Of a DNA stretch of 64,000 nucleotides, positions 15,162-45,497 are shown piece after piece. Positions within the stretch are counted from its first letter, which is position 1. The number at the start of each line of letters is the position of its first letter. The notes beneath the pieces were generated by a model. It saw only the letters and a program-made list of their open reading frames with translations. It was not told the origin of the DNA and searched no databases. This DNA is from Membranipora membranacea (taxonomy: Eukaryota; Bryozoa; Gymnolaemata; Cheilostomatida; Membraniporidae): assembly GCA_914767715.1 (NCBI GenBank), contig OU612073.1:3286001-3350000 (forward strand), given 5' to 3'. Position numbers and translations under genes: made by a program.

Positions 15162-18100
15162 TTATCTGCCGCCGAGAGCCTGATTCACCTCTTCTCTGCT
15201 CATACAACCTCTACAACCACAAATAACATGTTAATACGTTAACAAAATGTCAAAAAACAAGAAGTGTTTGGGATATGAATATAAAAACGAGGTAATTAGG
15301 CTACCAGCAAGCTGTAAGATTCCAGAAGTGTTGATTTTACATTACGGCCATTGATTGGAATAAGCATCAAACATGATACTTATTATTTCACACTCCATGA
15401 TTTAAGTTAATCAAAAGTTGATAATTTTTTGTTTGACTTCTCACACCAATGAACTAAACCTAGTTCATTGCTCACACATGGCTTCACAAATACTCCAATT
15501 TTCAAGTCATTTACATCAAACTGTTTTTTCCCTGCACAACGCAGAGACAACTCCTAAAAGCCTGAAATTCAGAAAAGAAACTGTTAGGGCGGATCTACAA
15601 ACCCGCAAGTCTTGTAGCAGTTCTCATGGATCCAGTTGAAGAATCTGTTGCTCGGGTCACAGTGCCCCAGTCCTAGATGTGTGTCACATTTCCTTTGTGA
15701 GAAGTTATCTGCACAATCTCTCGCAACTGTAAAAGTGACAGCAAAGAGTTATAAAGTGAGTGGGTGCAGTTTACGGCCAAGACCAGGATTGGATTCAGGT
15801 CAGACTCTAGGGGCATACGGTTAGTTCTAGCTATCTATATTGGGCAATGTACATTTAAGGAATAAAAAATTCTCCCTGGATGGGGCGTGAATTATTTTTT
15901 GTCCTTTTAGTCTCGGAACGAGCAGTTTTAAAATGTAATGACAAATTAGGTTTTGATTCTAAGTCAGTGAAATAACTGAAAGTCATTTAGAAAACCAAAC
16001 ATTTCATAGCCATCAAGTCATTTAGCCATTGACATGTTTGCGCCTCGAACTCTTTAACTGTAAAACCTGGAACAAGTTTGTTTTTTCTCAATGGTTGCAG
16101 AGAGATATATTTACCCTCATTATCTGACTTGTTGCAGTATCACTTGCCACCACAGAGGAAAAAAACTTGTTCTTAATTAAATAACCGAATAATATCAATG
16201 GAGGTTGTAGCTTACCTGGTTTTGGGGCTGTTGGTTTGAGACCGATATCATCATAAGACATCTGACCGAGCTTTATAAGTAGGGTAACAAGCTCATTGGT
16301 GGCTTCCTGAGTTGACAGCTAATAGAAACAAAGTTTTATAAAGGGATTAAAGGTGAAAGGTTATTTCAGTGTTAAACATTATTTATTGCACAGAAACTCT
16401 CTGATTTTATTGTACTCATATTTGAATTGCTAGAAGTCTGAGAAGTGGTCAGGTAACTTGAAAGTGTGACCACTTTTGACCACTCCCAACCACATCCGTC
16501 TTTTTGAGGTGTTTCGAATGCAATGTCAAATAATACTTAGTGCATAGAAAGAAAAGAAAGAAAGAAAAAAATATATATGTGCGTAGTTACGCAAATTAAA
16601 ATTTGCGGTCTATTTTATAGCTATACTATCTTGTTACGGGGAGGAGGGGGTTTAAACTAAATGCTTGCTTTCATCCTATTATTCCTCAAACTTCTAGTCT
16701 TTCAGTTAGACCTGAACATTTGCTATGGAAACAAGTACCATCACTCAACAATTTTGTCGTACTTGGATTTAATAACTCTGCTATGCACCTACCACGGCTG
16801 TATCAGCACATTTGGAACTTTTGAAGCCTGTGTTCCGATCCTGTACTGTGACGCAGGTACCATCTGTCTCAGTGATTCTCATTGCTCTGCCATAGATCAC
16901 AGTCTGAAATATTTCAAATATGAACAAATACATGCAGGTAGGCACTAAAGACGATCAGAAGTGCAGTTTACCACCAAAATATGTGTTGATATTTGTTATA
17001 TTCGCACCCAATTGATGCACCAAAGCTGACAATGACATTATAGCAATCGAGACTTGAGATTCCTTAGGGGTGGGCTTTTTGATGTAAGAGGTTTTGCATA
17101 TCTTCATCTCAAAAAACCATCTTCAATGTTGTCGTAAAAATAACAACAAGACAAAGGATTAGCGATGGATCAAGTTTAATCCATATGCGTACATTTGGAG
17201 TTACTCCCCCTATACTGATCCACTCTGCGCATGTACGAACTGTTGAGGCATACGTTCGTCTCTGCAGCATAGGGCTTGAACTAATTAACCTAGTCTGAGT
17301 ACCAAAATTGGGAAAACAATGGAAACCCATGCATTATTTAGAAATATTTGGGCCTAAGTGGAACACTGGCTTTGACATCTCTTAACCTTGAACACTGGGA
17401 GTTGCCTTTCTTGATGGAAGGCAGCGCCACTATTGCTGTGCTGCAGAGATAGACTATGTCACAAGGCTATCCTGCAGGTAGAGTGATACTGATCAGCATT
17501 CTGCGCATGCTCAGCTCTGGGCATGAGCTGATCTCTGCAAAATTGAGTCTCGGAATTCCGAAGCCATCTGATTGGCTACCTGCTCTGGTGATGATGTAAC
17601 TGAAAAGATGTCTTTTGTTTGATGCCGTGATATTTACATCTTTGTGTCTGATAATGTCCTGTATTTATGCTGCGTGTAATGATTTAGTGATGTGTCTCGA
17701 TGGTGAGTTATATTGGGAGAATTCTTATGAGTTGGATAGTGTGAGATGTTAATAAGGAAAGAGTGAGCTGATAGAATTGCTACTTTTATTCTCGATCCCA
17801 ATATCAAAACTCACGATAGTTAGGGGAACATTACATTATATATGATACTTATTAGTGATGCACAGCATTAAAAGGAAACATTGTTAACATACCAGGGAAA
17901 TTAATTGCTCATTATTCTTAATTAACACAATCTACTTATAAATCAATCATGAGGATCGGACATTCCTCTGGTAATAAAACCTTAATTAAAATGTCAATAT
18001 CCAGATATAACAGTGACATACTCCCCAAAGCGTGTGGATTTGTTATTAATAGTTATCCTCTCTTGTCATTATTAGCTGATTTTGATTGACAGTTTATGCA

Positions 18101-19098
18101 GGGGATATCCCATTTCCCCTTTCCAAAGTTGCAATCAGAACCCAAACTAAACTCATTGTTCTTGCACATGCGCAAATTCAAGTCACGCATGATGCATACT
18201 TAGCCTTACGACACCTGCTTTGTGGTAATGATAGCCTAGTTTATCAGTGATCTACATGCCCAGTCAGATCACGAGAGTCAGTAGGACTGATCAGTGGGAG
18301 AAGCGATACCGAATGTAGGTAAACTAGATCAAACTAAGTCTAGCTTTACACTCACGTCTTTGATATGATCAGGTCCATTGAAAGCGTTGGCAATGTTAGC
18401 TAGAGCACTGAGTAGATCTGCATTTAGATTGCCTCCTCCGACTACTTCTGAGGCAGCGGAGCTGATGGCTAAAGCTGGAATATGAGTAGATGAAAAGTAA
18501 CTGTTCACACAATGAATAGAAAAAGTTTGATTCGATTTGCCTGCATTCCAGTTGCTCCCCTTCCACTAGTTACTTCTGCTTGACCAGTCGAGGGGAGCAA
18601 CTCCAAATGCAAGCAAATGGATCAAAATTGTCCCACACAATAAGATATTGCCTAAAACGTTATTCTACTGGCTGGGTTGCTTTGGGATTTTGCAGCAGCC
18701 AGCTGTATTTCAATGCTGGAGTATTTTTAATTGAGTAGTATAATTTCAGTGATTGCCCATATACAATTGCTGTTTAGTGTCATACTCAACCAGATGGGTA
18801 GCCAAGATAAATGAGAGTCACTGAGCCGTTTACACCTATTGCTTCCTTCCACTGGTCACGCCACAGGCAAAGGCTGCGTGATCATTGGAGGGGGAGCAGC
18901 TCCGGATGCAGGCAAATGGACCAAACTTGGTCTAAGTCATAACTCAACAAGATGGTTATCCTCCAGATAAGTGAGAGTTACTGAGTCGTTCACACCAGAC
19001 GATATACAAACTTTTAGCAAGGATCCGTGTTTGTGAAAATAATTGTTAACAAAGTTAGAATACTAACCCAAGATTAATGCTGATATAGCTCCCTTCAT
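15162..19098 (-). CDS. Small secreted protein of unknown family
   Basis: Three firm exons plus a terminal one on the minus strand: 19098-19068 (MKGAISALIL, then one base), 18474-18356, 16318-16216 and a last exon near 15210-15162. Junction phases are 1, 0 and 1. The first two exons join to give a signal peptide (MKGAISALILALAISSAAS). The mature part, about 70-80 residues, contains LNADLLSALANIANAFNGPD, then LSTQEATNELVTLLIKLGQM and YDDIGLKPTAPKP. It looks helical, has no Cys after the signal, and matches no family I know. Two or three acceptors are possible for the last exon, giving either a three-residue end (EVV) or EEVNQALGGR. The long introns carry a MULE-like element, two MITE copies and a 24-bp footprint. 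Confidence 0.6.
15440..15477. mobile_element. 24-bp palindromic footprint with 7-bp duplication
   Basis: CTCACAC at 15440-15446 and 15471-15477 flanks 15447-15470, which reads CAATGAACTAAACC then TAGTTCATTG. Those are the first 14 and last 10 bases of the 1,249-bp element at 44197-45445, with no interior. See the finding on excision footprints. Confidence 0.85.
16549..16579. repeat. GAAA microsatellite with AT tail
   Basis: AAAG repeats run into an A run and then ATATATAT. It is intronic and low-complexity. Confidence 0.7.
17497..18285. mobile_element. MULE-like DNA element, 789-bp copy with 9-bp duplication
   Basis: The element is flanked by ACTGATCAG at 17488-17496 and 18286-18294. It starts CATTCTGCGCATGCTCAG and ends GATCACGAGAGTCAGTAGG. 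Imperfect inverted ends share CAT.CTG and CTGGGCATG blocks. No transposase frame is visible, so it is non-autonomous. A shorter relative lies at 40301-40664. It is intronic in the small secreted-protein gene. Confidence 0.82.
18517..18635. mobile_element. MITE, TAGATCAAG family
   Basis: Left end TAGAAAAAGTTTGATTCG and right end GGATCAAAATTGTCCCA are decayed versions of the family ends. Inner TTTGCCTGCATTCC and AAATGCAAGCAAATGG still pair. The flanks CACAATGAA and CACAATAAG match at 7 of 9 positions. Confidence 0.7.
18776..18996. repeat. 60-bp direct repeat bracketing a half MITE
   Basis: A stretch of about 60 bp at 18779-18837 (TCATACTCAACCAGATGGG to CGTTTACACC) recurs diverged at 18936-18996 (TCATAACTCAACAAGATGG to CGTTCACACC). 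Between them lies a TAGATCAAG-family MITE missing its left end; the right end GGACCAAACTTGGTCTA is intact at about 18916-18932. Confidence 0.65.
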
Positions 19099-20828
19099 TC
19101 TGATCTTGAGTGAAAATGACAGGACACTAGTGAACAGAGTTAGTTCTAGTAGGCCAATCCGGATATCAGCTCAAAACTTAACAACTTCCAGATAAGTGAA
19201 TAGAAGTGGTATGGCGAGGCCCGAAACCTTGAGCATTAAGCTTGATGTAGGAACGTCTTCTACATTGTGCCATATGTTATTTCCCACCAAATTTTCGTCA
19301 CACACTTTGTATTACGATGTCGTGCATTATTCTGATTCAATGATAGGCATCTGGTTAAAAGCAAAGCAAGCTGGGTTGGAAGGCGCTCCAAATTGTGTAG
19401 GGATGTCACGAGGTACCTAAGATATATAAATCCTCAACATGGGAAATCATATTATAAAGCATAAAGTTGTCTTCCCCGGCCTGTTTTGAGTGGCTGCAAG
19501 CTAGCTGGCACTTTAAATACTAGTTTAAGAAAAAACTAAATCAGATTACATTGCACAACAAAATTCAAGCTATTTTCCATATTGATGCATTATAGAGTAC
19601 ATTGGCTTTACTGAGCGGCAGCCGGCAATACAAGTATGAATTTATGTGGGTCATCCTCATCAAAAATCAAAGTAGGTCGGCCATAAAATATTGCCATCAA
19701 CTATGATTAAACATCAAGGATTGATTAAATAAATTGACATTATGGCTGTACAGCGCTCTTGACAACAGATGCAATCAACTGTTAATTTAGAGTTGACAGG
19801 TATCCCCTGTTAGTCCATGTCAGGATTAAAGGAATAGAATGGAGACAATAGATACGATAACTCCCGAGGGGTTAAACTTGTTTCTAGACAAGTAGAACAC
19901 TGAAATGACTACAATACAGAAAGCTGTAATCTACAATTTGAATTTGAATAATTTATAGTTTTATGCTTTAAATGTAATTGTGAAACCTGATCCGGTTTTT
20001 TCCAAGGTTCCCACAGGTCGGGTCGGTCGTTGTTTATCTTCATGATTAAATCTAAACAGTGTTGGACAAGAAACCCAGAGCTGAGTCAATGTAAACACAT
20101 ACTCATCTGATAAATGCACAACACAGGTGACTAATAATGATTTGTTGTCGAAATTATTTGCAGTATTTGTGTATTTTATATTTTGTATTGTATCGTTGTT
20201 ATGATAATTCAATTCACCCTTATGCTCCATGCTTACTCATATGCCTACTCTGAATACATTTGATGTTTGCCAATTTTTGTATAGCTTTGGTTTTAAAAAG
20301 CGTTTGTATGACTAGGTTTTGAACCTGATCATGTTATCACAGAGTAAGGATATATCCTTACTCTGTTATCCAACTAGCATAAATACATAAATATGGAGAT
20401 AGATTAGCCAACACATTGGCTGTCAATAGATTAGATAATTTTTTTATTATGACTTATTAACAATTTTATTCTAAATATACATTCTAAAGTTCATCACACA
20501 GTACATAAAATGTCATGTAAGAGTCTAAACAACAATAACGAATAATGTAAACCTACAGGAAATTATCACATAATTATACTTTCATCAGCAGTAAGAATGT
20601 CATGTATTGCATTTATTGCTGTGCAGATAGATAGATTGTGGTTTCTCTTTTCTATATCCCACTAGGAAAGGTGGGCGGTATATCCCACCCGACTCTAGCT
20701 TTGTTCTAACTCGAGACTAAGACACTTATGACAAGCAGGTTGATGTCTGTTACCACGATTATGTAATATTGATTATACAGGCGTTACAGTTATATTTGCG
20801 GATGTAGGCTGTGCAAAGTACCAACTCC
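19099..20828. other. Intergenic; no gene seen
   Basis: This is the stretch between the small secreted-protein start and the 3' end of the first Ly6/uPAR gene. Open frames are short and unsupported. It contains a 28-bp perfect palindrome at 20339-20366. It should include the promoter of the gene starting at 19098, but no motif stands out. Confidence 0.4.
20339..20366. repeat. 28-bp perfect palindrome
   Basis: ACAGAGTAAGGATA followed directly by its reverse complement TATCCTTACTCTGT, with TTATC just outside each end. It may be a footprint-like remnant, as at 15447, but of another element. Confidence 0.6.
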
Positions 20829-23785
20829 TTACAGCAGGAGCTTAGCAGCGAATACTGAAAAAAGAAAAAATATGAATCAATAGAAAAATCCAATATGTAC
20901 CGAAAAAGTGGCCCACGCAACCTGCGTTTTATGCAACCTGTTAAGAGTTGAAGGAAGGAAGGAAGAATGAGGAGGGTGGGGGTATTGGTGCATCAAACTA
21001 AATAATTGTTTGGACAGTCAAAAGGTCATGAGCAACATTATATTCTAACGTTGGAATTCAAATCTCAACAAAAACAGCAGGCAGTTTTCTGTAATAGTAA
21101 TAGTAGGGGGGATATGGGAATATCGGATGGGGGGGGAGCTAGGTTGGTATAGGGGGGGGATATAGGGGGGATATAGGGGGGATATGTGGGGATATGTGGG
21201 GATATGTGGGGATATGTGGGAAATATGTGGGCATATATGGGGGATATAGGAAGTTACGACTCACCAGCAGCAAAGAGAGATAAGCCAAGAGTGACGCTGT
21301 TTCCACCGTTGCATGAATCGCCCTCACATGAGCAGGACCAAACTTCAGACTTGGCTCCGAGCAGACTAGCCTTGGCGCGGTCGGCCTGCGCACACTGGGT
21401 GTTATCGTACAGGGTTCCGCAGGTTCTAACTACAGATGTAGCTGTAATGCCGAGTATCTTGCCGGAACTTTTAAGTTTGGAACATCCTGTTTCGCTGCTG
21501 TCACAGGCGGTCTTGTGATCTGCTGGCTTGCTGTACATGTCAGAGCATGTGGTATCTGTAGAATCACAAACGTAGCAGTCCAACGCAGTGCAAACAGCTA
21601 CCAGACCTGTAAAATAAAGAGATGAAATACAGGTTACACTCGGCATTCATAATTATGATGCAAGGTCATCTATAAGAGGTCAGTGTAATGCTTCTTGGTT
21701 TTGAAGTAGAATTAAAAAATTTACCATCTTTGCCTCGATTAAATAAACTTCAATAGTCACTCGAAGATTTAAACGAAGTTTCGGGTTATTTCGTGACCAC
21801 GCAATTTGTAGATGATTGACCGATTGGTATGGAAATAGTATAACAGAGAGTTTTCATGTGATGTTGTGAGTGGGAGACAACTCCTAATACTGTCAATTGC
21901 TCTTTCTCGAATCTTGCCAAACACAGGATAATGCCTTGCAAGCGATTAAGATAATCTCATATCACATTATTTAGGGCGTGGGTCTAGCAAACACTAAACA
22001 CTTCCACCACAAACCAGTTTTTGAACAAGCATTCAACTGATTGAGAACTTTGTGATACCTCAAAGAAATCAGTGACCTCGTTTGTACGGTTCATGCAATA
22101 TCAATGACAAAATCAAGAAAAGAGACAAAATGAGAAACAAACAAACGCCCTAGATGAGAACCCGTCCTGTGTGCATTCCAGATTAATGTTTGTTAAGAAT
22201 CAATGAAATGTTAACAAAAACTAGGCCAAGTTAAAAAGTCAAGAGGGGAAAATGCTGCAGTATATTATCAAAATTGTTTGAAGTTGCGTTGAAGCTGTGG
22301 AGCATTTTCGAGGCCATCACTTTTCAACTAATCTGGCTCAGACTTCTTTTATTTTATTTTCCATTGATGTGCCGTACATTCGATGCTATCAACCTATCAC
22401 AGGCTGAATATCAGAATTTTTAGGCAATAAACAAACTTTATACTTCAAATCACAACTTTTCAGCAATGGATATCATGACTGTTCAGTAGTTTCTTGATTA
22501 CTAAATACTAAATCCAGTCATTTCCATAACAGCACTGAAACAGATCCCAAAGTAGGTCATCAGATGAGTAAATTTTGAAAGGATTCATGTAGGGGCTATT
22601 TATATTATTACATAATTTTATTTCAATAGCATCTTTATATCACTATGTTCACTAACATAATCGGATTTCTCAACACGCAATTTACAGCTGCAAGCCAGTA
22701 TGGCCAATGACTTTTTCAGTATGGCCAAACTTCAAAGTATTTATAATCTTTGGTATGGCAGTTGGCTGGTAACACAGTTAGCCCTGGCTAGGTCAGTTAA
22801 TATCGTAGCCACTTGCATACTGGTCAATACTGGCTAACTAGAATAAGGTCGACAATCGGCGGCTTAGTAAGTATTGATTGAGCTAAAATCTGCTGGTATA
22901 GTTTCTAAAATTCACTGCAAAATGGCAGCTTCTACTAACTAGAATACCATTCAGACATTATACAAAAATAATCCATCATAGCCGACCCAATTATAAAAGC
23001 TGCAATGAATTGTAATACTTTAGTTGACCAGAAGCTGAGAAGTTGTACAAAGTTGTACAAAGTTGTTACTCGTAAGACAAGCCGAGATAATACAATGAAG
23101 GAGATACGAAACTTCTTGGCTAATAAATATGAACTTTTTGACAGGGACAGGGTATTCCTAATCATCGGAGGACTCTTTACTCATTAACATTGAAGACCCC
23201 TTGTGTTTTTGGAGTATTTTCACACAGCTACAGAAAGAGTAGCGGTATATCGAACAAACAAAACAAACAAACAAAGTTCTATCATGGTGAGCAGGGTCGT
23301 TGTTTATAGAAGATGACATGGGAGACAAAAATCTAAGGCAGGTCTAAAGTATCACTAGGAGGGGTGCTGCAACCTCCCCGAAGTTGGGTTGTATAAATTT
23401 GAGTTATATAAAAAGCATAAAAAATCCGAAAAAATGTTTATGACATAGGTTATTCAATTAATTTGTTTTTAGGCCACTCTTATTGTGCCTCCATGCCTCC
23501 CCTAAAACTATGGGCTGGAGAGGAAATTAAATATCCAAATTACAACAACGTTTGAACATTTTTCTGATTGCACCTGGAGGCAATTGGGTGAAGAATACGA
23601 TTGCCAAATTGAATAATTACACAGGAAATGAACATTTCCCACCTTCTGCTGCTAAAATATCAGCAAATTAAAAGTTTATGAAAACCTAATACACATTCCC
23701 TCAATTCAGATGAAAAGTGTATGAAAATAAACGATTATTGTTTGATAGGCTTACCTAACAAAAGAGTAACAGCGAGAGCGTTCAT
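20829..23785 (-). CDS. GPI-anchored Ly6/uPAR (three-finger) protein
   Basis: Complete three-exon gene: 23785-23755, 21606-21265 and 20854-20829 (stop TAA). Both junctions are phase 1; the product is 132 residues. Signal peptide MNALAVTLLLGLVAVCTA is followed by a Cys-rich domain with ten Cys, opening LDCYVCDSTDTTC and closing VWSCSCEGDSCNGG, the Cys-Asn ending typical of Ly6/uPAR domains. The tail is hydrophobic (VTLGLSLFAAVFAAKLLL) with no residues beyond, as in a GPI-attachment signal; the likely site is near NGGNS. Family members sit on the outer membrane leaflet as receptor modulators or adhesion molecules. The ligand here is unknown. The 27.8-28.8 kb gene is a paralogue with the same exon plan. 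A G-rich array lies next to the second exon's donor. Confidence 0.88.
21113..21250. repeat. G-rich GGGGATAT minisatellite beside a splice donor
   Basis: Tandem variants of GGGGGGATATA and GGGGATATGT run from about 21113 to 21250 and end within 15 bp of the donor of the Ly6/uPAR main exon. On the transcribed (minus) strand they read CCCC-ATATC runs. Confidence 0.85.
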
Positions 23786-24489
23786 TTTGGAAGGAGATAG
23801 GTGTCTGAACGGGAGAGGTAAATGTTGATGTGTGCAGTTCTAAGTTGCAAGCTTACAATGACTTGTTCAGTAGCGCACAGGAGCTGCTGACCAGTGACCT
23901 AGTAGCCTGGTTTCCAATCTGGTTCACGCCCTATAAATTGTAGGAGCGATTGTTATAGCCCCCTAATGTTATTTCTACTGCTGCTAGATTTATATGAGAG
24001 ACAATCAAAAATTTGCACAGCTATTGGCTAGAAGGCTCTAGACAACTCCTGCATACTGTGTTATATAACTTTCTCGTGGAAATCTATAATCATTGTGCAC
24101 ACTGTTAAATGTGTTGTGTTCACTAAAGCTCAAGCCTCACAATTCTGCTTCACAAACTAAACTAAAAGCCGATTTACAGCGGCAGCAAAGTTTATTATAA
24201 ATACTCATTAGTCATGAATAGTTATTGGTGGCAGTAAATCAGAAAAGAAATAGCCATTCTTTTCCGACAGAAATATTAGTGGACAGTGATAATTGACATA
24301 GCAGTGGCGGCAGCTTCAAAGTGACTCAATAATAGGAGGGAAAGGTAGAAAAGTATCAGGAAGTGGCTATGGAGATGACAATTAAAAAAATGGAACATGA
24401 TGAATAAAGTGGTCATTGGTGGTAGCTAGCAGGTTTGGCGTGTTGTGCATATTCAAAAACACTGGCTAGCGCTTTTATAGAAATAGAAA

Positions 24490-24513
24490 ATGATATATAT
24501 ATATATATATATA
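24490..24513. repeat. AT microsatellite
   Basis: TATATATA run in the flank upstream of the first Ly6/uPAR gene. Confidence 0.8.
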
Positions 24514-24706
24514 AAATTGTTGTTCTTGTGACGATTATTATCAAAAGTATTAGTTAAAAGATAGTAGACTGTCAGCCGTTTTGCATTTCAGTCTGAAATT
24601 GTGCAGCAGATTTAAGAGAGCTGTTTTGCCAAAATGTGTCCTAAAAGAAGGTTTTATTACTGAACATTTACTTCTAAGGGAGCGTTGGTGTGTATTAGGA
24701 GGAATG

Positions 24707-24806
24707 TAGAACAAATTTAATCCAATTGCCTGCATTCCTATTGCTCCCTTCCACCAGTGGATCGGGAGCGACTCGGAATGCAGGCAAATGGATCAAACTT
24801 GGTCTA
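24707..24806. mobile_element. MITE, TAGATCAAG family, perfect 9-bp duplication
   Basis: A 100-bp element between GGAGGAATG at 24698-24706 and 24807-24815. Ends are TAGAACAAATTTAATCC and GGATCAAACTTGGTCTA, and the inner arms TTGCCTGCATTCC and GGAATGCAGGCAA pair perfectly. Confidence 0.9.
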
Positions 24807-25042
24807 GGAGGAATGAACAAACCATCGATCTATGTATACAGTCCATCCAAGTCTAGTGATCGATAATTCAAAGACAACAAAGTTATACAGACAATGGTAA
24901 CACCGAAGTCTGGGCAGTGCCCAGGCCCTCTTCTGCAGTGGGATGAAAACAAAATTAGATAAATTAAATATGATAAGTAATGCACAACAAATTAATTGTA
25001 ATGAGATCTTTTAATATATTAATTTTCAACGTCGGCCTACAT

Positions 25043-25153
25043 TAGACCAAGCGTGATCCAATTTGCCTGCAATTAGGTATGGAGCCGCTGCGGACGGTCA
25101 CCAGTAGAATGGCAATGACCGGACTGCGGGCAAATTAGATCAAACTTGATCTA
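25043..25153. mobile_element. MITE, TAGATCAAG family, perfect 9-bp duplication
   Basis: A 111-bp element between GGCCTACAT at 25034-25042 and 25154-25162. Ends are TAGACCAAGCGTGATCC and AGATCAAACTTGATCTA. It lies 237 bp from the copy at 24707. Confidence 0.9.
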
Positions 25154-26570
25154 GGCCTACATCATTCTAACTTTTTATACGATCTTGCTGCAATGACCCT
25201 GACTAGCTTGTTTGTTATGCAATCTCAGCTATAACAAAGATTAGTGAATACTTGGCTTGAGAAGGGATAACTACTTAGTGATGATATATCTTCACTCTGC
25301 GTTTTCCTGTATTACCAATACATGTTTTAGTGATAATCAGAATTTTTAGGTGGCTTTATTGCGCAATATCTCACAGCAGGCTAGGTACTTCTCGCTATCC
25401 CAACAATCCTGCCATGCTAAGTTATGAATATATTATCCAGCGTCTGGTTCTTTGTTTGTGAACTTTTCTTACACTTTTAACACTGAATTCATCACAAGAG
25501 TGCACTTCTCCATAACAACATCAGATAATTTGCAAACATCTGAGCAGAAAGGTTAGATGAATGATATGAATTTAATATATATCAGTGAGTTAGATCAAAC
25601 TTTACAATCAAGCTTTACTGTGTGTGATAATGCGCTGAGAGAGATGTGAATAGGGCAACCCCTGGCCACTGCCTGTTGTCGGTTTTTGGGGTGTCAGCAG
25701 TAGACGGTTGTTCTAATGGGATATTGTCAGCGTCATCGAGAGAATTTTATTGCTGCCAAGCTATGGAACATGACAAGCTAGGAAAAACATTTTATTTAAT
25801 TACATCATTTCGAGGTTATGAGGTAGAAAACACAGTTGAGGTCCAAGTAGTATAGTATAGTATAGTAGTATAGTCCAATATGTATTCATAGAGATTAACA
25901 ACATCTAATTATATGATATAAATGTATTATTATGTTTGAGAATAATGTAAAAAGAATATAGTGATATTTCATGTCTTCCAAAATATCTATGCTTTTATAG
26001 AAGTGATGAAAATTCTTTAGTTATTAGTTATATGGAGAAAAATTTGGAATTAAAAGCTCGAACAGTATTATATCACTAACTGGCCATTGAAAGCCAAACC
26101 TGCTGCATCAGTTTCTTTGTGGTGAGGTGAAAAGTCCAATTGTTGTAGAATTTAATTGTTAGTAATAAGTGCAAACTTCTGTCAGATTTTGCCCTAATCT
26201 AGTGATAAAAAATACATACAAAAAGATAAAGGAGATATTCAGCATTAAAAACCTCAGTACTTAACTCGTCTTGAGAAGCTTTTTCGGATGGGAGGGGGGT
26301 GAAGAGGGGGGAAGGGGTCCACGAAACTCGGCAAGCTAAGGAATTTTGAGCTGCGCCATATTATTCAGAGCCAGGGCGGTTATAATAGAGCAGCTTCCGT
26401 GGATACATGTGACTGAGAGAGAATAATCCTGATTAGAAAACAGGAGAGGAAGGTTCTATAATTATCAAGGTATACAAGTTGTTGATTTTACCACAGAGCT
26501 GTTTTTTAAATTCCAACCGCTGTTTTGATATGCACCGGAGGGGGCCATTTGACAGTGGGCAAGAGTCTGC

Positions 26571-26585
26571 GGGGGGGGGGGGGGG
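26571..26585. repeat. Poly-G run (15)
   Basis: Fifteen consecutive G residues. The length is likely unreliable in sequencing. Confidence 0.8.
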
Positions 26586-26680
26586 CTCTGACTAGATACC
26601 ATCCACCAGGAAGTGTAGCTAAGAGAAAATAAGCTATGCTAAATTCCAGGACTATCGTCTAAGAACCTGAGCTACACGGC

Positions 26681-30800: not shown

Positions 30801-30809
30801 TATAGCTTC

Positions 30810-30955: not shown

Positions 30956-30964
30956 TATAGCTTC

Positions 30965-32717: not shown

Positions 32718-32756
32718 GTGGTACCAATGAACTAAAGTTTAGTTCATTGGTGGTAC
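32718..32756. mobile_element. 25-bp palindromic footprint with 7-bp duplication
   Basis: GTGGTAC at 32718-32724 and 32750-32756 flanks 32725-32749, a perfect palindrome (CAATGAACTAAA, central G, TTTAGTTCATTG). Both halves are the 12 terminal bases of the 44197-45445 element. Confidence 0.88.
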
Positions 32757-34181: not shown

Positions 34182-37100
34182 TTAGTGGTATGAACTGGAC
34201 TTTCCTTTTTGATTGTCAGATGTTCTACTCTTTCGTTTCCTCTTGGGTTCAACATCAGGTGTTGTGACCGGTCCTGTCTTGCCTGGACCTACATTAGCCT
34301 TATCTGATCTATATTTTACTGCCAAAAGGACAGCTGCCCCTGACACCAGGGCAATGAGCACCAGTATGATGACTATAATCGCAGCAGTGCTCAATGGATG
34401 CTTTTCATGTTCAGGCATTTTGTGTGTGGAATCATTACTCATGTTGTTTAGGTCACCTAAAAAAATAGAACAATTCTAGTTGATTAAGTGGAATTATACT
34501 AAAGCTCCACAAATTGATTCTTTTTATAGACCAGGGCTGCCAAACCAGTGGCCCTGGGGCTTCATGAGGCCCCCCGGCCCAATTTTATGCGGCCCCTGAC
34601 CCGTAGTCGCAAAAACAATTTTCACCCCTATATTTATTATATTCCTCATTTTTACAGTAATAAGAAACGCTCTACATCTAGTCACAGTATTTTTGAATTC
34701 CCCAACGATTGCATTTGAGTGAGCTCCAATAAATAGATTTCCCAATGCAGAGGTGAAAATACTGCACACCCATATATGAATGTATGATTTATGGCGAGGT
34801 TGCAGCCCCCAGGGACATTGCAATATGTGGATGCGGCCCCCCTCAATGAAAAGGTTGGGCACCTCTGATTTAGACAATGGACAAGAAATTCCACACATTC
34901 TCATGTTGCTTTAGGAATAATTATAGAGCACATTACCGCCATTACCGGTTGAGATTGGTTCTAATCCGGCAAACTTGACTTTCCCTCTGACGCAATTGAG
35001 GCTTTCTTTTCTCGACTCCAAACAGTACAGAATTTGGGTCTCCTTCACGCTATTATTTGGTGTGTCAAATGAAAGTGAGCTTCCTGAATATAAATTGATC
35101 AGAAGAAGATCTTAATTATAACTTTAGCCAATTAACTTGAATTATAGACATTGTTTGACCTCAACAAATGCTCAAATTTGAGGTACTTTCAATGACCGAT
35201 CCGTGCACCTGATATTTTTATTATTCATTTTCATTTATTGATTGTTGTGAATTGATGTGAAATCTTAATAAACCATCAGTTACCAATCACTGTTAACATC
35301 CGAAATGCTGCCTTAAGGACTTTTTTTAAACCACAAAATTGTTTTTGATCAGCTCACATGCAAAATATGTGATTGGAATAAGGGTTAGGTTTGCTATCAG
35401 CCAATGATATTTCATAGACAATGCCTTTTACTGATTCCCGTCATAAACATCAGGTAACATCATGTCAGTACTGTTAATTAACCAATGAGACATTTTCTAG
35501 CTGGTCAAAGATTGGCTTTTAATATCATCAGCTGCGTGTAACAAGTAGCGAGTGATTATAGCAGCTCGTATAAAAAATGGGTGGAACTTAGACCACTAGT
35601 TAAACAACTTCTCTCATGATAGGATAATCACTCGTATGTGTGCAGTGGCTCTAAGTTTTGCTTTAGCTTGCCAACAATAATTGTGTAAAATGTGGATATC
35701 ATTGAAAATAGGACATTTTAAAAAAGTCGGTTTTCACTCACCAATTAGATGGTATGGTTGGCCAGACTCAGTATAAAACCAATGGCTTTTGGCTCTACTA
35801 TAATTAACTGCAGGCTGAATATCTGTGTCATTGACAACATATTCTCCAGGCTCAAGGGTTACCGAACACTCCTCATAAATTATATCTGGAACTGCAACAG
35901 AACATTGAATCCTGAACCGTTTTGTGAAGCAAGAGTTTGAGTGCTAAACAATGTTTCCAAGGTTATTTCAGTTATTATATGTCGAGGTGACTTTAGTTTT
36001 AGGCCCAATCGACACATGGGACTAGCATTTATGTCAACTTTCCCCTGCATCGATAGGCATTTCCCCATGGCGAAGGCAGATACCATTTTGCGTGGATGAA
36101 TGGAAAGCACGCATGCACACAATGACTTCAATGGTCATCGATGCGGGAGGCCCGGTTCAAATGCTGGCTGCGGCAGATGTTAATTCATGTTTTTTTCATC
36201 ATGGAAATTGTAAGCATTCATCATTCGAAATGGGAGTGGACCACTCATTCGAAGCATGGAAACGTAGTGATTATGGTGGCAGAAAAGGGTAAGATAAATG
36301 ATGGTTTGATTTGATACAGTCAAGGACAATATGAATAGGTGGAGTCCTCCAGTTGATAATATGATTTGATAAGACGAAAATAAGATTAGATTGAAATTGC
36401 TGATCGAGCTTGCTGCCACGCAATCTCTAATATTTTCATTTATTAATATTTATTAATATTTGTACATCTCAGGGACATCTAATCACACTTAATCATCCTG
36501 TCTACACTTAAGCAGAAAAGCTCAGCATGATTCATCTGCCAAAACACTCTTTATACTCTAACAATGAAAGTTTGAAATAAAAGCAGTAAAGCTACACAAA
36601 GCTACAACAAGCACAAATTTAAGGATGCAAGGAATATATCAGCGCAGTTCATCATAACCTTTGTTACAAGAAGGATGTGAGAAAATACTGAGCACTCGGG
36701 ACTGCCAGCTCATCAAAAATATTCTAATACACCATACAATCTGCTGCTGTCATCTACGGACAACAAACAATCAGAGGAATGGAGGTCATTGGTACAATTG
36801 ATCGTGCACTTACAATCCACTCATGCTATCCAGAGAGCTGAAAAGTTAATTGTACAAAAATACAACCAACCTTCTGTGAGTTCATTGGCAGAATTCGGTT
36901 GCTACAATTACAATTTGATCGTCCGCTTACAATCCACTCATGCTGTCCCGACAGCCGAACAATAATTGTTCACATTTCCGTCTTGGCAGATCAGACGTTG
37001 TACATGTGGCAGCACTGACATCACGTAAAGTACCACCTTTCCCATTGATGTGTACACACGGCTACTGTGAGGAAACCTGATGACACAAATACAACTGACT

Positions 37101-40100
37101 CTCTGTAAGTCCATCGGCAGAAATTAAATTACAGTCTGATCGTCAAATTACATGCCACTCTTATCCTGAGAGCAAAAAATTAATTGAACACAATTCTGTT
37201 ATTTGCCAGCTCAGACGGTGTACGGTTTAACAGCACGGACGGCTCACCAGTAGTATCACATACAAAGTTGGGAGTAGTCTCCTCTTCAAACCCACAACTA
37301 ACTCTCTGTAAGTTCATCGGCAGAAATGAAATTACAGTCTGATCGTCATATTACACGCCATTCTTATCCTGAGAGCAAACAATTAATTGAACACAATTCT
37401 ATTACTTGCCAGCTCAGACGGTGTACTGTTTGACAGCACGGACAGCTCACCAGAAGTATCACATACAAAGTTGGGAGAAGTCTCCTCTTCAAACCCACAA
37501 CTAACTCTCTCAGACGATGTACTGTTTGACAGCACGGACGGCTCACCAGAAGTATCACATACAAAGTTGGGAGTAGTCTCCTCTTCAAACCCACAACTAA
37601 CTCTCTCAGACGATGTACTGTTTGACAGCACGGACAGCTCACCAGAAGTATCACATACAAAGTTGGGAGAAGTCTCCTCTTCAAACCCACAACTAACTCT
37701 CTCAGACGATGTACTGTTTGACAGCACGGACAGCTCACCAGAAGTATCACATACAAAGTTGGGAGAAGTCTCCTCTTCAAACCCACAACTAACTCTCTCA
37801 GACGGTGTACTGTTTGACAGCACGGACGGCTCACCAGAAGTATCACATACAAAGGTAGGAGTAGATTCCTCTTCAAACACAGCTGATTAATCAACTCACT
37901 CCTCTATAAATAGAATGTAAGTCTACTGAGCACATCACACAGATTGAAAACTCGTCCAATAACGACTCGGTCCACATTTGTACACCTGACAGCTATTCTG
38001 GCAGATGATAATGTTGCAGCTTTAATCTCCACTATTGTTATCCTCGCAGCCCTCGGCTTGTTTAATCATTCCGTTTATTCACATATTCTTCTCACATATC
38101 ACAATGCATCGTAAAATCCTATATCATATCATTGTAGTGATCAGATACCTATGATAGGATAACTCATTTATTATTGGAAGCAAAATGGACCCATTATAAT
38201 GTGTGAGTTTTTCTTTACCATCAACCGCATTTATTATCATTCATTGTTTAAGAAAAGATCATAATAATCATCATTTTCTATCAGAATCGTTGCATAGTCA
38301 AATTTGTCATATTTTCACATTACATGATGAAAATTGAAGTTTGTGATAATTTCCTAAAATGAAATGTTTTTTTCAACTGATTGTTAACTCCTTTTCAATT
38401 CTTGTTAACAGGATTACCAGCAAATAAAGATAATATGAACACAATAAGCTGCGTCGAATCACGGGTTAATGCTGGCCAATACAATATTCATATTAATATA
38501 ATGCTAACAGCTTCATTTATTAATATTGATATTAATTTTAATATTCATATTCAATAAATTAATATTTAATTAATTAATATTAATAAATATTAATATTAAT
38601 ATTCATTAATATAAATTTATAGATATTAGTTAAAATGAATATTAAGCTGGTCAAAGCTTTAGATGTCGAATATATTGGAATTTTCGAAATAAAACCTTTA
38701 CTGGATTCATAAACAATAAAAATTCGAAAAGTGAGATATTTCAGTCAAGGAAAATATGAATAGGTGGAGTCCTCCAGTTGATAATAGGATTTGATAAGTC
38801 GAAAATAAGATTAGATTGAAATTGCTGATCGAGCTTGCTGCCACGCAATCTCTAACATTTCCATTCATTAATATTTATTAATATTCATATTAATATAATG
38901 CTAACAGCTTCATTTATTAATATTTAATAATATCAATATTTATTAATATTGATATTAATTTTAATATTTATATTCAATAAATTGATATTTAACTAATTAA
39001 TATTAATAAATATTAATATTAATATTAATTAATATAAATTTATAGATATTAGTTAAAATGAATATTAAGCTGGTCAAAGCTTTAGATGTTGAATATATTG
39101 GAATTTTCGAAATAAAACCTTTACTGGATTCATAAACAATAAAAATTCAAAATGTGAGATATTTCAGTCCGATTTCACCGAAAAGTATGCTCAACTCTCA
39201 GCTGCCCATCATCAGCTGGAAACAATTGGACATGACAGTAACATGAATCCCTCTTAACCACCACACGCACACGACTCACTTCTTCATCAAACTATAGAGT
39301 TTTTGTTGTTGTGGTCGGTTAGCTTCAAAAGAATTGGGAAAAAAGGCACACACACCTGTATTTCCTTTGTTATTATCTTTTCTTATTGTTCATTGTGAAA
39401 AAGGGTTTCATTCTTGCGATATATTTCGGCATGTTTATGTAGCATGTTATGTTGACCACCTACCTTTCATAGTTGGAATATCTGACTCCTGAGTTTTATT
39501 AGAACAGCCTCTTTCTTTGATGCTACCGGATCCAGCAGACTCCACATTAATCAAGCCCCCTTCTTTTCGGACACTTGTATAGAGTTTATTACTAGCACGC
39601 AAGTTGCATCTCACTGAGAACCAGCACTTTTCAAAAGCACTATAGTTATGGCACAAATTGAAACCTGAAATTACAATACATTGGTGAATCAGTCAAAATT
39701 TAGCGATGTAATTGTGAGCTTGAGTTTTACGACTGACTTATATCACTGTAGAAGTAATGACAGTCTGACAGCTGCTCAAATATGTTATGAAGGGTCATGA
39801 ATGGAAACTTTAAAAGAAATTGTCGAAATGTCATTAGGTTAAGTAAGCCTATCTTAATAGCCCCGTTTAAATTTTGTTTTTTTTTGGTCTCATAAGACTG
39901 GGTTAGCTACCATTATTGTCTCCTGTTTTTCAAGCTTGTTTAGAATTTACCCGTTGAAATATCACTGCTCACTGGTTACATTTGGACACATTAACTTTAA
40001 CTACCGTTGGTTTGATGGAGATTTCTGGATTTTTTCATATTTGAAGACCAATTTTTTATATTCTGGCAGCTAGTTCTGCAGTAGTTAAGCAGTATAAGTA

Positions 40101-43100
40101 ACAAAAAAATTAAGCATTTCTGGGTAAAATTTATGTAGGCCGTATCTATAGTGTTAGAAATTGTCCCCATTCTCATTTATGGTAACAATGCATAGTGCTA
40201 TACCAGCCCAATAAGCTACAAACTCCAAATACTTTTGAGTACTTATTTTTCAACATAAGTTAAAGGGCAACCAAGGTTTCGCAGCGATGCATTAATGGGT
40301 CATTCTGCGCATGCTCAGCTCTGGGCATGAGCTGATCTCTGCAAAATTGAGTCTCGGAATTCCGAAGCCATCTGATTGGCTACCTGCTCTGGTGACATAC
40401 TCCCCAAAGCGTGCGGATTTGTTATTAATAGTTATCCTCTCTTGTCATTATTAGCTGATTTTGATTGACAGTTTATGCAGGGGATATCCCATTTCCCCTT
40501 TCCAAAGTTGCATTCAGAACCCAAACTAAACTCATTGCTCTTGCACATGCACAAAATCAAGTCACGCATGATGCATACTTAGCCTTACGACACCTGCTTT
40601 GTGGTAATGATAACCTAGTTTATCAGTGATCTACATGCCCAGTCAGATCACGAGAGTCAGTATGTTAATGGGTAGTAAATTATGTGTTAAGCAGCATCAG
40701 CTTTTGTGCATTACGCGACGCAAAACTGAAAGTAGTTGCTGACTCTAAACTGGGTAACACTTCAATTTAGAGGAGGTTCCAAGACATTGCTGTTATAATG
40801 ATTGAGTACAGGCTAAATAATAACAGGAGCAGGAAACTGCTCTGTGGTATTCTATTTTAGCAGAGTTTGAGTACCTGATGGATGAAATGTTTCCCAATAA
40901 CTCTGGCTGAATAATCATCCGAATTAGATTTGGTCTTTTTCCCTATTTCCCTATATGCAGAAGGTGCAACCTGCTATCAATCAATGAGAACATGTTTGAA
41001 ACCTTGGTTGCCCTTTAAAGTTAAATTTTCATTGAGAGGGACATGGTACAAAAGTAGATAACTTAAATATTGAACACATGTGTAAAAGGCCCAGTCAGCG
41101 TATAGCGATCACCCAGCTGTCTCGAGTTCAAATTCAAATTCTTCCTGCTTTTTTGGGAATAAGAGTGTAGTGATTTTTGAGAATGGGATTTGCTGATGTG
41201 GAATTGTGTGATAAGCATGCCCGATCAATTTTGATCCCAATAATCACATTACGAAAAAGTGAAAATATATCTGCTGTAATACTAAATTGCCCAGTTCCAA
41301 TGATTTCAAATCATCTGCTTCAAATTATTTGGCCTCTTACTACTCTGACCTTTAAGATTTATGGTTTTAGAGGTTGTCTGGATATCGTTGTCAAGATTGA
41401 GATTGGACGTGACCAATATACCATAGAATAAAATCAGACAGCTCCTATTTTACTCTGAATTCTGAACTATTGCAATTTATTTTCGAGTTGTCTTCTCTTG
41501 TCAAATGGATTTACCTAGGCTGTCCTTTCCCTGCCCTTTCGAGAACAGTTGAGCAGGGCTGTTATTGGGTTAAGTTCAAAGATTATACCTTAAATACCCA
41601 TGTTCCTCCTATAGCGCCAATCGCTTGACAGTGAATAACAAGTGCGCTATCTAATTGTGCCATCTCACCACCCCCAAAAGAAAAGGGTTGATGGTACTGA
41701 TAAGCAAGCCCACCGGTCAGTACTCTGTGCTGCACACACCCTCACCAAACAAGCTCCCTCCATCCCACAGTTGCCACCCTAATAACACAGTATATGTGTT
41801 ATGGTTAATGGCCCTAGGTATGACTCATCGCTAGGACCCCTTTTAGTGGTTTAGCTCTCAAGAAACTCCCTTAGTTGACAAAATATTATTTAGATGTTTT
41901 CTTGACACAGATAGCAGTAAGATGAAGTCACATAGCAATACTGCAGGTCTGTTTACCTTCTTCGATTTCTTTTTTTGTCTTAATACCAATATACATCTCT
42001 CTTTGGTAGTAATTCACGAGGTGCACAGGGCTGTCTGAAACATTGATGACAGCACATCCCTACATTACTCCACCTGTAGTAGTGGTCCTCAGAGGCAAGG
42101 CGGCAAACTTAAAAAAAGAGATGCAATTATGATTAGCAGCTGATATGGCAACTAAGTCACTATACTAACAATCACATATCAATCATGTATCAATCACGTA
42201 TCAATCATGTATCAATAACATATCAATAGTCGTGTTTAGCAGTAAGCCTGGTGTTTAACCTGTCTTAGTTGAGTCAGGTTTTATCTCATAATCTACCATC
42301 TATGGTGATGTTTAACTGTATAAATGCAACAGTCATTTAATATCAATATTTTGCAAACTCGACCCTGGGGGGAGGCACATACTCTTAACTCACCAGGATA
42401 TCGGATAGGAACCACATGTGATATGTACAGGTTCCCTGCTGTGTTCTCCCAGGCAAGACATTTGACAAAACCAGAGTGCAATTATCATCTGATTCTTCAT
42501 CAATGTGGCCAGGTACAATATTCAACTTTAATGATCCTTTATCTCTAGTTGCCCATACGTCAGACCCTATTTCTTTCAATTTTTCATGTTGTCCCCATCT
42601 GAGCCAGGTGAATGTGTCTCCAGGCCCTGTTAAATATATATTAGAAGATAACACAGTCAATGATATGCCCAACTATATCTTAAAAAATACAATGAAAATG
42701 ATGATGAACAATAATACAATAATAATAAGACAATTTAATTTACAGAAAAAATCAGTTGGCTGATTATACCAGGCTATCAAGCTAAATCATTCCCACAAAT
42801 AATTGCTTTCACAATTTATCCAGTCGCAGTGTCAGTTACACCAACTATTTACTGGGAAAAAAATAAATATATATAGGTATATATGCTATCAATGTATCAA
42901 CTATAAGAGAAAAGAATATTCACCTTCACATGACAACCTTATACCGTCACTGTAGGCCCAAATCTCACCGTCGATTCTCGCTTTTGGATCACTTTCGTTC
43001 TTGATGTTTAGAGTTGGGTATATTCGTCTTTTCTCAGAACATGTGCTGCTAAGTGTCAGTGCTAGAACTAACAAATATAGTATAATATTTATATACAGTA

Positions 43101-43645
43101 TTTCCCATCACAACAAATTACATCACATCAAATAAACTGTAAAAACATTCAATGCATATGCCAGGGAAAAATTAACGAAACGTCGATTATTTTAAATGGT
43201 CTGAGTCAGCCACTCCATTGCGAGTTGATCCTCCGGTTTGTAGATAACTCCAGTTATCCTTAAAACTTGTTACTCTATCAGAATTACCCTTTTCAACAAG
43301 TTGATTGTCAGACAACAATTTTGAACGGTGAATGTTTGAGAAGAAAAAGGTCAATCAAACTTTAAAGTTTTGTAGAGCAATCGATAACTTATCATATAAG
43401 ACTAACACAAAAGAATGTACAGACTGAACAAATCTGTGATACTGATATGATATAATATCATTTAAACTGAATTAACAAAGTAATTTTTTATAAATAGTAC
43501 AATATGTAATAATGGAAAAATCAAACAAGCAGTTTGACATGCGTGCATGATACTGTTTCGTCACAAAGGTGTCCAAATATAACGAAAAAACATCTTTTAC
43601 CTCACCAGTAAATCCCAAAACTAGCACCAGTTTGAGAACCTGCAT
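34182..43645 (-). CDS. Type I membrane protein with Ig-like N-terminal part
   Basis: Complete eight-exon gene: 43645-43606, 43061-42924, 42626-42394, 42059-41957, 39664-39464, 35891-35742, 35083-34937 and 34456-34182. It encodes 428 residues with continuous phase; all introns are phase 1 except the third (phase 0). The signal peptide is MQVLKLVLVLGFTALT. Exons 2-3 look Ig-like (GIRLSCEGPGDTFTWLRWG, then DDNCTLVLSNVLPGRTQQGT, the latter with a Cys shift). Exons 4-7 form a Cys-containing ectodomain I do not recognise (NLCHNYSAFEKCWFSVRCNL; IIYEECSVTLEPGEYVV; TQILYCLESRKESLNCVRGK). Exon 8 carries one membrane helix (STAAIIVIILVLIALVSGAA) and a basic tail (EPKRKRKSRTSDNQKGK). Exon 4 has the weakest acceptor. 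Exon 7 has two in-frame donors nine bases apart. A surface receptor or adhesion role is inference. Confidence 0.78.
34532..34867. mobile_element. hAT-type non-autonomous element
   Basis: The left end CAGGGCTGCCAAACCAGTGG and right end AGGTTGGGCACCTCTG are inverted relatives of the widespread hAT end CAGGGGTGCCCAACC. The flanking 8-mers TTATAGAC and ATTTAGAC match at 6 of 8 positions. The GC content (GGCCCC blocks) stands out from the AT-rich intron it occupies. Confidence 0.78.
36318..36470. repeat. Copy of the 38.7-kb dispersed repeat
   Basis: AATATGAATAGGTGGAGTCC through TGCTGCCACGCAATCTCTAA recurs nearly unchanged at about 38750-38860, followed in both places by TTTATTAATATT runs. Confidence 0.8.
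37200..37890. repeat. 96-bp tandem repeat, open in several frames
   Basis: Five units start at 37414, 37510, 37606, 37702 and 37798 (TCAGACGATGTACTG, period exactly 96 bp), with a degenerate longer-period unit from about 37200. Because 96 is divisible by three, open frames of 165-176 residues exist on both strands. The plus-strand frame reads SPEVSHTKLGEVSSSNPQLT per unit. It sits in an intron of the receptor-like gene with no splice support, so I treat it as a minisatellite, not a gene. Confidence 0.85.
38483..39169. repeat. Tandem AT-rich duplication
   Basis: Two copies (about 38483-38744 and 38881-39169) share ATGCTAACAGCTTCATTTAT, a long AATATTAATATT stretch, AGCTGGTCAAAGCTTTAGAT and GTGAGATATTTCAGTC. 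The spacer at 38745-38880 is the same sequence as 36318-36460. Confidence 0.8.
40301..40664. mobile_element. MULE-like element, internally deleted copy, 9-bp duplication
   Basis: Flanked by TTAATGGGT at 40292-40300 and 40665-40673. The first about 93 bases match 17497-17590 and the rest matches 18012-18283 nearly perfectly, so about 420 bp are missing relative to the longer copy. Terminal CATTCTG and CAGTATG are inverted (6 of 7). Confidence 0.85.
42178..42230. repeat. ATCAATCATGT tandem repeat
   Basis: About five variants of an 11-12-bp unit (ATCAATCATGT, ATCAATCACGT, ATCAATAACAT), intronic. Confidence 0.8.
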
Positions 43646-44637
43646 CCTAGTTGACTACCAGCTTCGTCACTACTTACAACTAATAGTTAATGGCGCAACA
43701 GCAGGAATGCCTGTTGTTGGGAATTCAGTTAGACCTTACTTGCGCAGAAAACGAATGTGTTACTATGATATGAGTCATGTAATTCTTATAAAGTCTGATA
43801 TCGTCAGCAACAACAAATAAGTCAATTGAAAAAAAAACAGGTTTGCTATGATAATTTAAAAATATATCATTTGATAGATAAAAATAGGAAAGTGCTGATG
43901 ACTTATAATGATAAGATTTAAAATTAAGAGGATAGTTCCAAATGACATAAGAGTGGAACTGATAATTTGCACAGACACTTTGGTCACGAACATGTTGTTT
44001 GCAAATCTTTGCAGTTGCACGTCTTCAGGTACATATCATATCCATCGCACAAGCACCAATACTACCTTCTTGCACCATATTACTCTTTTATATTTCATCT
44101 TACCACTCTCTGATTCTTCTTTTCTTTTTTTCTTTTTATCCATTTAATTTATGCTACCATGCTCTCATTAGCCTACTCACAATGTGTATCTAACACCAAT
44201 GAACTAAACCTCCAGGAAGAACAACTGCAGTCACATGACCAATTGAGGTGTGTGCAGTTGGTTCAGAGTTTTCCTCTCAAAAACACACTAAATTGGAAAC
44301 ATAACTCCATGATAGCCCAAGTTCTTTTGTAGCAATTAGGGGTGGGTTACACTGAATACACTGACTCACTAGAATATAACCGCAATTCTGTGAATATGCT
44401 TAGTGATGAGGCTTGATGGCCATGGTGTTGACACCAAATATTCTCATAACTGATGGTTTATTTCACTAAACTGAGACATGGAACTATAGAGAAGATGCTC
44501 ATTGACAGTTGAGGTGCCATCCTTTGCAGATATACAATGCTTAAACCTCAAAAATAATGCAGAGAAAAGTCATTAAAATGTTAATTTTTCACTCTATAAA
44601 TCCTGGAATCTCTATGCAGAACCCATAATTGATCAAT

Positions 44638-45052
44638 CAGGGGCGTATATTCTAAAAAATTTCACTCACTGACTTTTCAGAGATGAGCATAATAATCGAG
44701 CGCAGCCCGATCCACACGCTGCAGGCGTGGCGGGGAGGGTGTGGGAGGGGCGCTTAAGCGCCCTCCCACCACGGAAATTTTTGCATATCGGTAGCAAAAT
44801 AGTGCAAGCAAAGAGGTATTTCAATAGCTCACTGAGCTGTTGGGTACTTTCAGAAAACAACTCAATAGCAGTAGAAGATTACAGTAAAAATGCTCCAGTT
44901 ATAAAGCACCCATTTGAAAAAAAACTGACCCCGATGGGATTCGAACCCACAACAATCTCATTAACAATGATTATAAAGCGAATGCTCTACACACTGAGCT
45001 ATTCAGCCACTCACGGAAATCCGTGGGCCGTGAGTGCTAATATACGCCACTG
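44638..45052. mobile_element. hAT-type element carrying tRNA-like sequence, 8-bp duplication
   Basis: TGATCAAT at 44630-44637 and 45053-45060 flanks a 415-bp element with ends CAGGGGCGTATATT and AATATACGCCACTG, inverted at 13 of 14 positions. It contains a GC-rich hairpin (GGGAGGGGCGCTTAAGCGCC then CTCCC near 44734) and a tRNA-like segment on the minus strand. Confidence 0.88.
44927..45010 (-). other. tRNA-like segment (not a functional tRNA)
   Basis: On the minus strand it has an A-box-like TAGCTCAGTGTGTAGAGCAT, an anticodon-arm region TCGCTTTATAATCATTG and a B-box GGGTTCGAATCCC in tRNA order. The acceptor strands (GTGGCTG and CGGGGTC) do not pair, so I call it tRNA-derived. It probably supplies a polymerase III promoter relic within the hAT element. 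Confidence 0.65.
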
Positions 45053-45458
45053 TGATCAATCTAAAAACATGTGGCTATGGGCTATATTGCAAAGAACATA
45101 TACCTTGCAGGTAAATACATTGAACATACACATTTTGATTGTAAAATGATGAAAAACCCATTAAAATCAGCATATACAAGCAAGATATGCTGAGGAATGT
45201 GTCATCTGACTCTAAATCATGGAATGTTGGAGAGGCAGTTGAAGGTATGAGTCCTGTTATCCCTCATAACCATGTTTCATCATAAACAATTACTCCTAGT
45301 GATTGCAATTTCATTTTTTACTGATCACTCTCTAATTTCAAGTGACCATTATTTATGCATGCACATCATTTTTCAATTTTTCGGAATTAGCCAATCAGCA
45401 GCCAGCTTAACTATGAGTTGTTCTTCCTGGAGGTTTAGTTCATTGCTAACACCCTACA

Positions 45459-45497
45459 CTTATATCAATGAACTAAACCTTAGGTCATTGCTTATAT
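45459..45497. mobile_element. 25-bp palindromic footprint with 7-bp duplication
   Basis: CTTATAT at 45459-45465 and 45491-45497 flanks 45466-45490 (CAATGAACTAAACCT then TAGGTCATTG). These are the terminal 15 and 10 bases of the neighbouring 1,249-bp element, with one mismatch. It lies 20 bp from that element's right end. Confidence 0.85.

Follow-up and report, generated by a model that had tools for sequence, protein, structure and literature searches.

Drosophila P transposase leaves 17-nt 3' overhangs (PMC7776569, PMC2895639). In Rad51-deficient flies, the repaired junctions read target site duplication (TSD), tip, tip, TSD, and they are blunt, carry short or long overlaps or contain templated filler, with a partial dependence on polymerase theta; in wild-type flies, sister-chromatid repair is initially favoured (PMC2895639). 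Here we describe junctions of similar layout in the bryozoan Membranipora membranacea, whose assembly holds 339 Mb in 18 contigs. The window, that is, the whole 64-kb stretch of DNA analysed (C9:3286001-3350000), contains three palindromes composed of terminal inverted repeat (TIR) tips only, together with one filled transposable element. We hold with high confidence that these palindromes are scars of P-type excision, in which the transposon was cut some 15 nt inward of each of its ends and the break was then closed by end joining.

Drosophila melanogaster P footprints resemble these scars in combining a TSD with part of each tip and in their varied joins, with short overlaps or filler (PMC2895639). 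They differ in dimensions and setting: Drosophila P has an 8-bp TSD and a 17-nt overhang, whereas here the TSD is 7 bp and the putative stagger about 15 nt, and the fly footprints come from a laboratory assay, whereas here hundreds of sites appear in one assembled genome. This is a known kind of scar, but its scale is unusual and its putative stagger is unlike the Drosophila value. Galileo, a Drosophila member of the P superfamily, has a 7-bp palindromic TSD, GTANTAC (PMC4168063), compared with RTNNNAY here, and unusually long TIRs (PMC3688188), compared with TIRs of 30 bp in the single filled copy of the window. The P-type miniature inverted-repeat transposable elements (MITEs) of Anopheles gambiae likewise combine P-type ends and a TSD with a non-P interior, but their reported TSDs are 8 bp rather than 7 bp (PMC1562414). 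The word 'footprint' is absent from the main text of both the Galileo paper (PMC4168063) and the Anopheles paper (PMC1562414). Zebrafish Pdre2 is also a P-type element, excised by the THAP9 transposase; its reported TSD is 8 bp and its TIR 13 bp, and zfTHAP9 excision in fly cells gave larger flanking deletions (PMC10983969). A survey of DNA-transposon excisions in rice shares the genome-scale view of junctions, filler included; it concerns plant transposons in two rice species, with 94 putative excisions, 43 flank deletions and 58 cases of filler, and its accessible part does not describe retained tips like those reported here (PMC4423477). No genome-wide study of P footprints was among the titles returned by a literature search, which is no proof of absence because subscription journals lay mostly outside its coverage.

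Tip-only palindromes and their target site duplications

Direct reading puts all three TIR-only palindromes, and likewise the 1,249-bp element, exactly where the first-pass annotation had placed them, each flanked by its own perfect 7-bp TSD on the forward strand. The 24-bp palindrome CAATGAACTAAACCTAGTTCATTG (15447..15470) lies between copies of CTCACAC (15440..15446 and 15471..15477), and the 25-bp palindrome CAATGAACTAAAGTTTAGTTCATTG (32725..32749) between copies of GTGGTAC (32718..32724 and 32750..32756). A second 25-bp palindrome, CAATGAACTAAACCTTAGGTCATTG (45466..45490), lies between copies of CTTATAT (45459..45465 and 45491..45497); its right tip at 45481-45490, TAGGTCATTG, differs by 1 base. 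This last palindrome sits 20 bp away from the filled element (44197..45445), which is bounded by perfect 30-bp TIRs (44197-44226 and 45416-45445) and by copies of CTAACAC (44190..44196 and 45446..45452). No transposase was seen in the filled element, and its sole frame of at least 150 amino acids (44673-45149) matched no Pfam family at E<=0.001. Taken by itself, the 10-mer tip does not clearly exceed chance expectation in the window: with up to 1 mismatch allowed it matches 14 times, shuffled sequences average 8.3, and 14 or more turned up in 6 of 100 shuffles. The case depends on the combination of tip, inverted tip and TSD.

The first-pass annotation had left it to a genome search whether tip and inverted tip recur together. 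With 0-30 bases between them, the only spacer range searched, CAATGAACTA and TAGTTCATTG gave 958 matches in the genome and 0 in the reversed control. Because this count takes in nested matches and copies within amplified repeats or duplications, the number of independent events is lower. The exact 25-bp form CAATGAACTAAACCNTAGTTCATTG is present in 120 copies (69 and 51 by strand), again with 0 in the reversed control, and the genome seems to hold hundreds of such scars. Palindrome density in the window (3 in 64 kb) exceeds the genome average, in a window that was itself chosen by a reader.

Flanks were read in two sets of sites. Junctions came from the first 100 matches listed, all on contig C1, which gave 47 sites once overlapping matches were merged. 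The C1 flank set of 41 sites comprises 36 of the first 38 spacer-search sites, two being omitted as duplicated-segment copies, and five 25-bp sites, so that the 25-bp class is over-represented. An exact 7-bp repeat flanks 29 of these 41; the other 12 have 1 mismatch (4 sites), 2 (1 site), 3 (3 sites), 4 (2 sites) or 5 (2 sites). The second set, 40 sites picked from the list of 25-bp matches on seven other contigs, has an exact 7-bp TSD at 25 sites and none that is exact at 15. Exact directly flanking repeats of 5, 6, 8, 9 or 10 bp are found at 0 of the 41 and 0 of the 40 sites. Merging the 81 sites left 75 that are flank-distinct, with an exact 7-bp TSD at 53, one mismatch at 8 and no TSD at 11; at a further 3 the repeat becomes exact on the assumption of a second outer tip, in one case judged from 5 visible bases. 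The first-pass annotation had made its reading hang on whether most palindromes carry 7-bp repeats, and in this sample of the 958 matches most do.

The exact TSDs also differ from one another, at 29 of 29 sites in the C1 set and 23 of 25 in the other-contig set. Since all 29 exact C1 TSDs are different, these 29 sites represent separate insertions. The consensus of the duplications is RTNNNAY: position 2 is T in 25 of 29 C1 duplications and 18 of 25 on the other contigs, and position 6 is A in 27 of 29 and 22 of 25, respectively.

Junction structure and a proposed route to it

The cores between the duplications are diverse. Among the matches listed, the 47 C1 sites hold 25 core kinds, 20 of which occur once. 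The commonest are a 26-bp core, CAATGAACTAAACCTTTAGTTCATTG (13 sites), a 25-bp core (5), a 29-bp core (4) and a 31-bp core (3), where the 29-bp and 31-bp counts each contain one duplicated-segment pair; the 24-bp core of the first window palindrome was met at 2 sites. Both the 26-bp and the 25-bp core arise where the tips overlap in a single T and one of them is retained to 15 nt. Across the 41 C1 sites, the longer retained tip measures 15 nt at 27, 16 nt at 6, 17 nt at 1 and 18 nt at 1, and is shorter at 6, so that 35 sites fall at 15-18 nt and none exceeds 18. The tips are joined through a 1-nt overlap at 20 sites, bluntly at 3 and with 1-24 further nucleotides at 18. Two of these 18 (CAATGAACTACC... 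and CAATGAACTACA...) differ in their inner sequence and probably stem from sister families, in which case their 'insert' is not a real one. A few inserts appear by eye to be copied from tip or flank (L038, L073, L088). Shorter scars escape the search because 10 nt of each tip were required.

The pile-up at 15 nt, the TSDs on both sides and the varied junctions are as predicted for a transposase that cleaves inside each end, with the tails then joined. In the proposed route, a P-type transposase would insert the element through a 7-bp staggered cut of the target, with a preference for RTNNNAY. At excision, one strand would be cut at the outer edge of the element and the other about 15 nt inside, leaving each chromosome end with some 15 nt of transposon tip. 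Host end joining would then unite the two tails, often at a 1-nt overlap and sometimes with short filler, to give TSD, tip, inverted tip, TSD. Both the size of the stagger, about 15 nt, and the polarity of the overhangs are deduced from the scars, and the acting transposase and the repair pathway are proposed in the same conditional sense. Junction diversity and the 15-nt pile-up thus support the footprint reading of the first-pass annotation; its estimate of cleavage 10-15 bases inside each end stands as to an internal cut and is better put at about 15.

Source of the tips and competing explanations

The genome encodes P-type transposase domains. Their RNase H domain, PF21787, has at least 134 matches, with 150 of 211 candidates scored. 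One 526-amino-acid frame combines THAP, HTH, RNaseH_N and GTP-binding (GBD) domains, and a THAP domain was detected in frames of three loci (L060, L056 and L051). A 4,986-bp element on contig C8 (C8:16710746-16715731) ends in CAATGAACTA and CAATGACCTG between exact copies of the 7-bp TSD ATTATAT, and its three frames hold P-transposase RNaseH_N, GBD and RNaseH_C domains above Pfam cut-offs. As evidence, this element draws its weight from the exact TSD found at its opposite end rather than from the tip alone. A PDB sequence search with its transposase frame gave 0 matches at E<=0.001, and alignment breaks between transposase copies were uninformative on element ends.

The features of the P superfamily can be followed one by one: a genome-encoded P-type transposase (RNase H with a GTP-binding insertion) is present, the TSD falls within 7-8 bp (7 bp at the 53 of 75 sites above), the TIRs are about 30 bp (30 bp and perfect, in one filled copy only), and what excision leaves of the tip is well above 10 nt (at 35 of the 41 C1 sites the longer one measures 15-18 nt). 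Of the features of the Galileo group, a 7-bp palindromic TSD near GTANTAC is matched by RTNNNAY, and very long TIRs are absent, again in the one filled copy. It is likely, on these sequence features, that the scar-forming element belongs to the P superfamily.

Several observations weigh against the account of P-type excision. The ends of the C8 element match the 30-bp TIR only over the outer 6-9 nt and then diverge, and a THAP domain was not found in its three frames, whose exons are not resolved. Exact CAATGAACTA was present at 0 of 20 transposase loci, with about 1.5 kb taken on each side, and in just 1 of 11 further transposase 5' flanks, the C8 one; rough arithmetic puts the chance expectation at 0.2-0.4 exact tips in the DNA examined, so that such a match is not very unlikely. 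An autonomous copy bearing the complete 30-bp TIR was not encountered near these 20 loci and 11 flanks. The 11 flank-distinct sites that lack a TSD count on the same side, and at some of them (L115, L029) a TSD is seen by eye past short filler, left uncounted. Lastly, wild-type flies use end joining of P overhangs as a lesser route, and a scar-rich genome is not the default prediction from flies (PMC2895639). With ends that diverge from the 30-bp TIR and no THAP domain detected, the C8 element is a relative and not the autonomous partner. The longer element with these ends that the first-pass annotation had asked for is matched in outer tip and TSD length but not in TIR, and the THAP/P-type autonomous relative in its P-type domains but not in THAP.

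The absence of a copy joining the 30-bp TIR to its own transposase, at the same 20 loci and 11 flanks, would also suit a cut-and-paste transposon with a 7-bp TSD outside the P superfamily. We consider such a source unlikely, as the retained tips are long, the RTNNNAY duplications are like those of Galileo, and a P-type transposase lies within the C8 element of the same outer tip and TSD length.

Alternatively, the palindromes of 24-31 bp might themselves be the mobile units, ultra-short MITEs moved by a transposase. Two cores are indeed met repeatedly among the matches listed, one of 26 bp at 13 of the 47 sites and one of 25 bp at 5, and on the other contigs 25 of 40 sites of the 25-bp class carry exact 7-bp TSDs, 23 of them distinct. 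Against this, mobility of Drosophila P elements reportedly depends on end sequences of at least 138 bp and 216 bp (PMC1562414). The 15-nt pile-up would also be left unexplained, the recurrent cores are precisely those made by the 1-nt T overlap, and fillers and deletions vary between sites, with 20 of the 25 core kinds single among the matches listed. A self-mobile ultra-short MITE should have a fixed sequence, present in copies at many unrelated sites, and we rejected it on the diversity of the junctions (25 kinds at 47 sites, among the matches listed); mobility of the palindromes is improbable.

The palindromes might instead be internal-deletion derivatives produced by interrupted gap repair, as in the Drosophila KP elements, rather than by the direct joining of transposase-cut ends. 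Such derivatives likewise retain both tips and the TSD. Their endpoints should scatter widely, whereas among cores with 0-30-base spacers the lengths of the longer tip concentrate at 15 nt and do not exceed 18 nt in the 41 sites; the explanation was rejected on this pile-up, and we give it a marginally smaller chance than mobile palindromes. Chance or assembly artefact, for which only the unremarkable frequency of the 10-mer tip in the window speaks, is refuted by 958 matches against 0 in the reversed control and by exact TSDs at one length only, and its probability is negligible.

With P-type excision and end joining as the preferred account, the abundance of scars may reflect different repair habits or simply many excisions. 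A bolder version, which we put forward tentatively and hold to be possible but not probable, is that P-type excisions of several families are mainly end-joined in this germline, that scars, hundreds of them for one tip alone, may outnumber resident copies, and that the transposase staggers its cuts by about 15 nt, not 17 nt. If the host is indeed dominated by end joining, its genome would serve as a natural collection of junctions from break repair in the germline. P-type footprints have been described in laboratory flies; the present assembly by itself appears to contain hundreds, most of the sampled ones marked as separate insertions by their TSDs. Such scars would let the cleavage position and the spectrum of heritable end joining be read without experiment. 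They also carry a caution for annotators, in that short TSD-flanked palindromes can be scars and not MITEs.

Distribution of the probable scars, related tips and neighbouring features

Scars on C1 are clustered. Among the matches listed, 5 of 46 gaps are 1.2 kb or less, against 0.28 expected under uniform placement, and 0 of 5000 simulations reached 5. The clustering fits local reinsertion or a common target preference, the two not being told apart. Two scars at C1:1831223 and C1:1839868 (G000) are repeated about 390 kb away, at C1:2221964 and C1:2232568, with identical near flanks, which suggests a segmental duplication postdating both excisions. Another scar with extra filler occurs with the same flanks at seven places on four contigs, in two filler variants (L092, L109, L117, L118, L120, L121 and L122), and is a scar carried by an amplified repeat.

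Scans independent of the tip sequence sought pairs of inverted tips enclosed by direct repeats, covering 219 kb in the window and 30 loci; many of these loci had been chosen around palindromes or transposases, so that matches there are partly built in. For short cores, repeat lengths of 4, 5, 6, 7, 8 and 9 bp gave 4, 2, 0, 8, 0 and 1 matches. With looser arms and a CA start, lengths of 5 to 9 bp gave 0, 0, 11, 4 and 0, and three of the four 8-bp matches lie within one tandem array. A longer-range scan that included L001-L023 gave 0, 3, 25, 16 and 1 matches for the same lengths; the 25 include the filled element and count some sites twice, and most of the 16 belong to other, longer elements and the tandem array. 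The commonest repeat length in these scans is 7 bp.

They also returned other tips with 7-bp repeats: CAGAGACTATAG in the window (2968-2998), CAGGGAGGGTGG, CAGGGAGAAT and CAAGGAGTTA. The window example is the palindrome CAGAGACTATAGATAATATCTATAGTCTCTG (2968..2998), with tips CAGAGACTATAGAT...ATCTATAGTCTCTG between repeats of GTATAAC, and is probably the footprint of another family of this type. At L071:8338-8683, a 56-bp near-palindrome, CATTGCTGCGAAACC..., occurs three times at a spacing of 145 bp between CATTAATG repeats.

The scan for inverted tips further showed that the filled element is interrupted by a nested 415-bp element (44638..45052), with the 8-bp repeat TGATCAAT and near-perfect tips CAGGGGCGTATATT and CAGTGGCGTATATT, which we take to be hAT-like. 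Subtracting it by hand leaves about 826 bp of the filled element's own sequence. A similar tip, CATGGGCGTATATT, also with an 8-bp repeat, was seen at L049:3077-3311.

Elsewhere in the window, ARAGORN (bacterial code) found 0 tRNAs and Rfam gave 0 matches at gathering score. A reverse transcriptase frame of 460 amino acids (PF00078) lies at 13181-14563. At 37364-37903, both strands have open frames holding a repeated peptide unit, which suggests a tandem repeat of about 100 bp.

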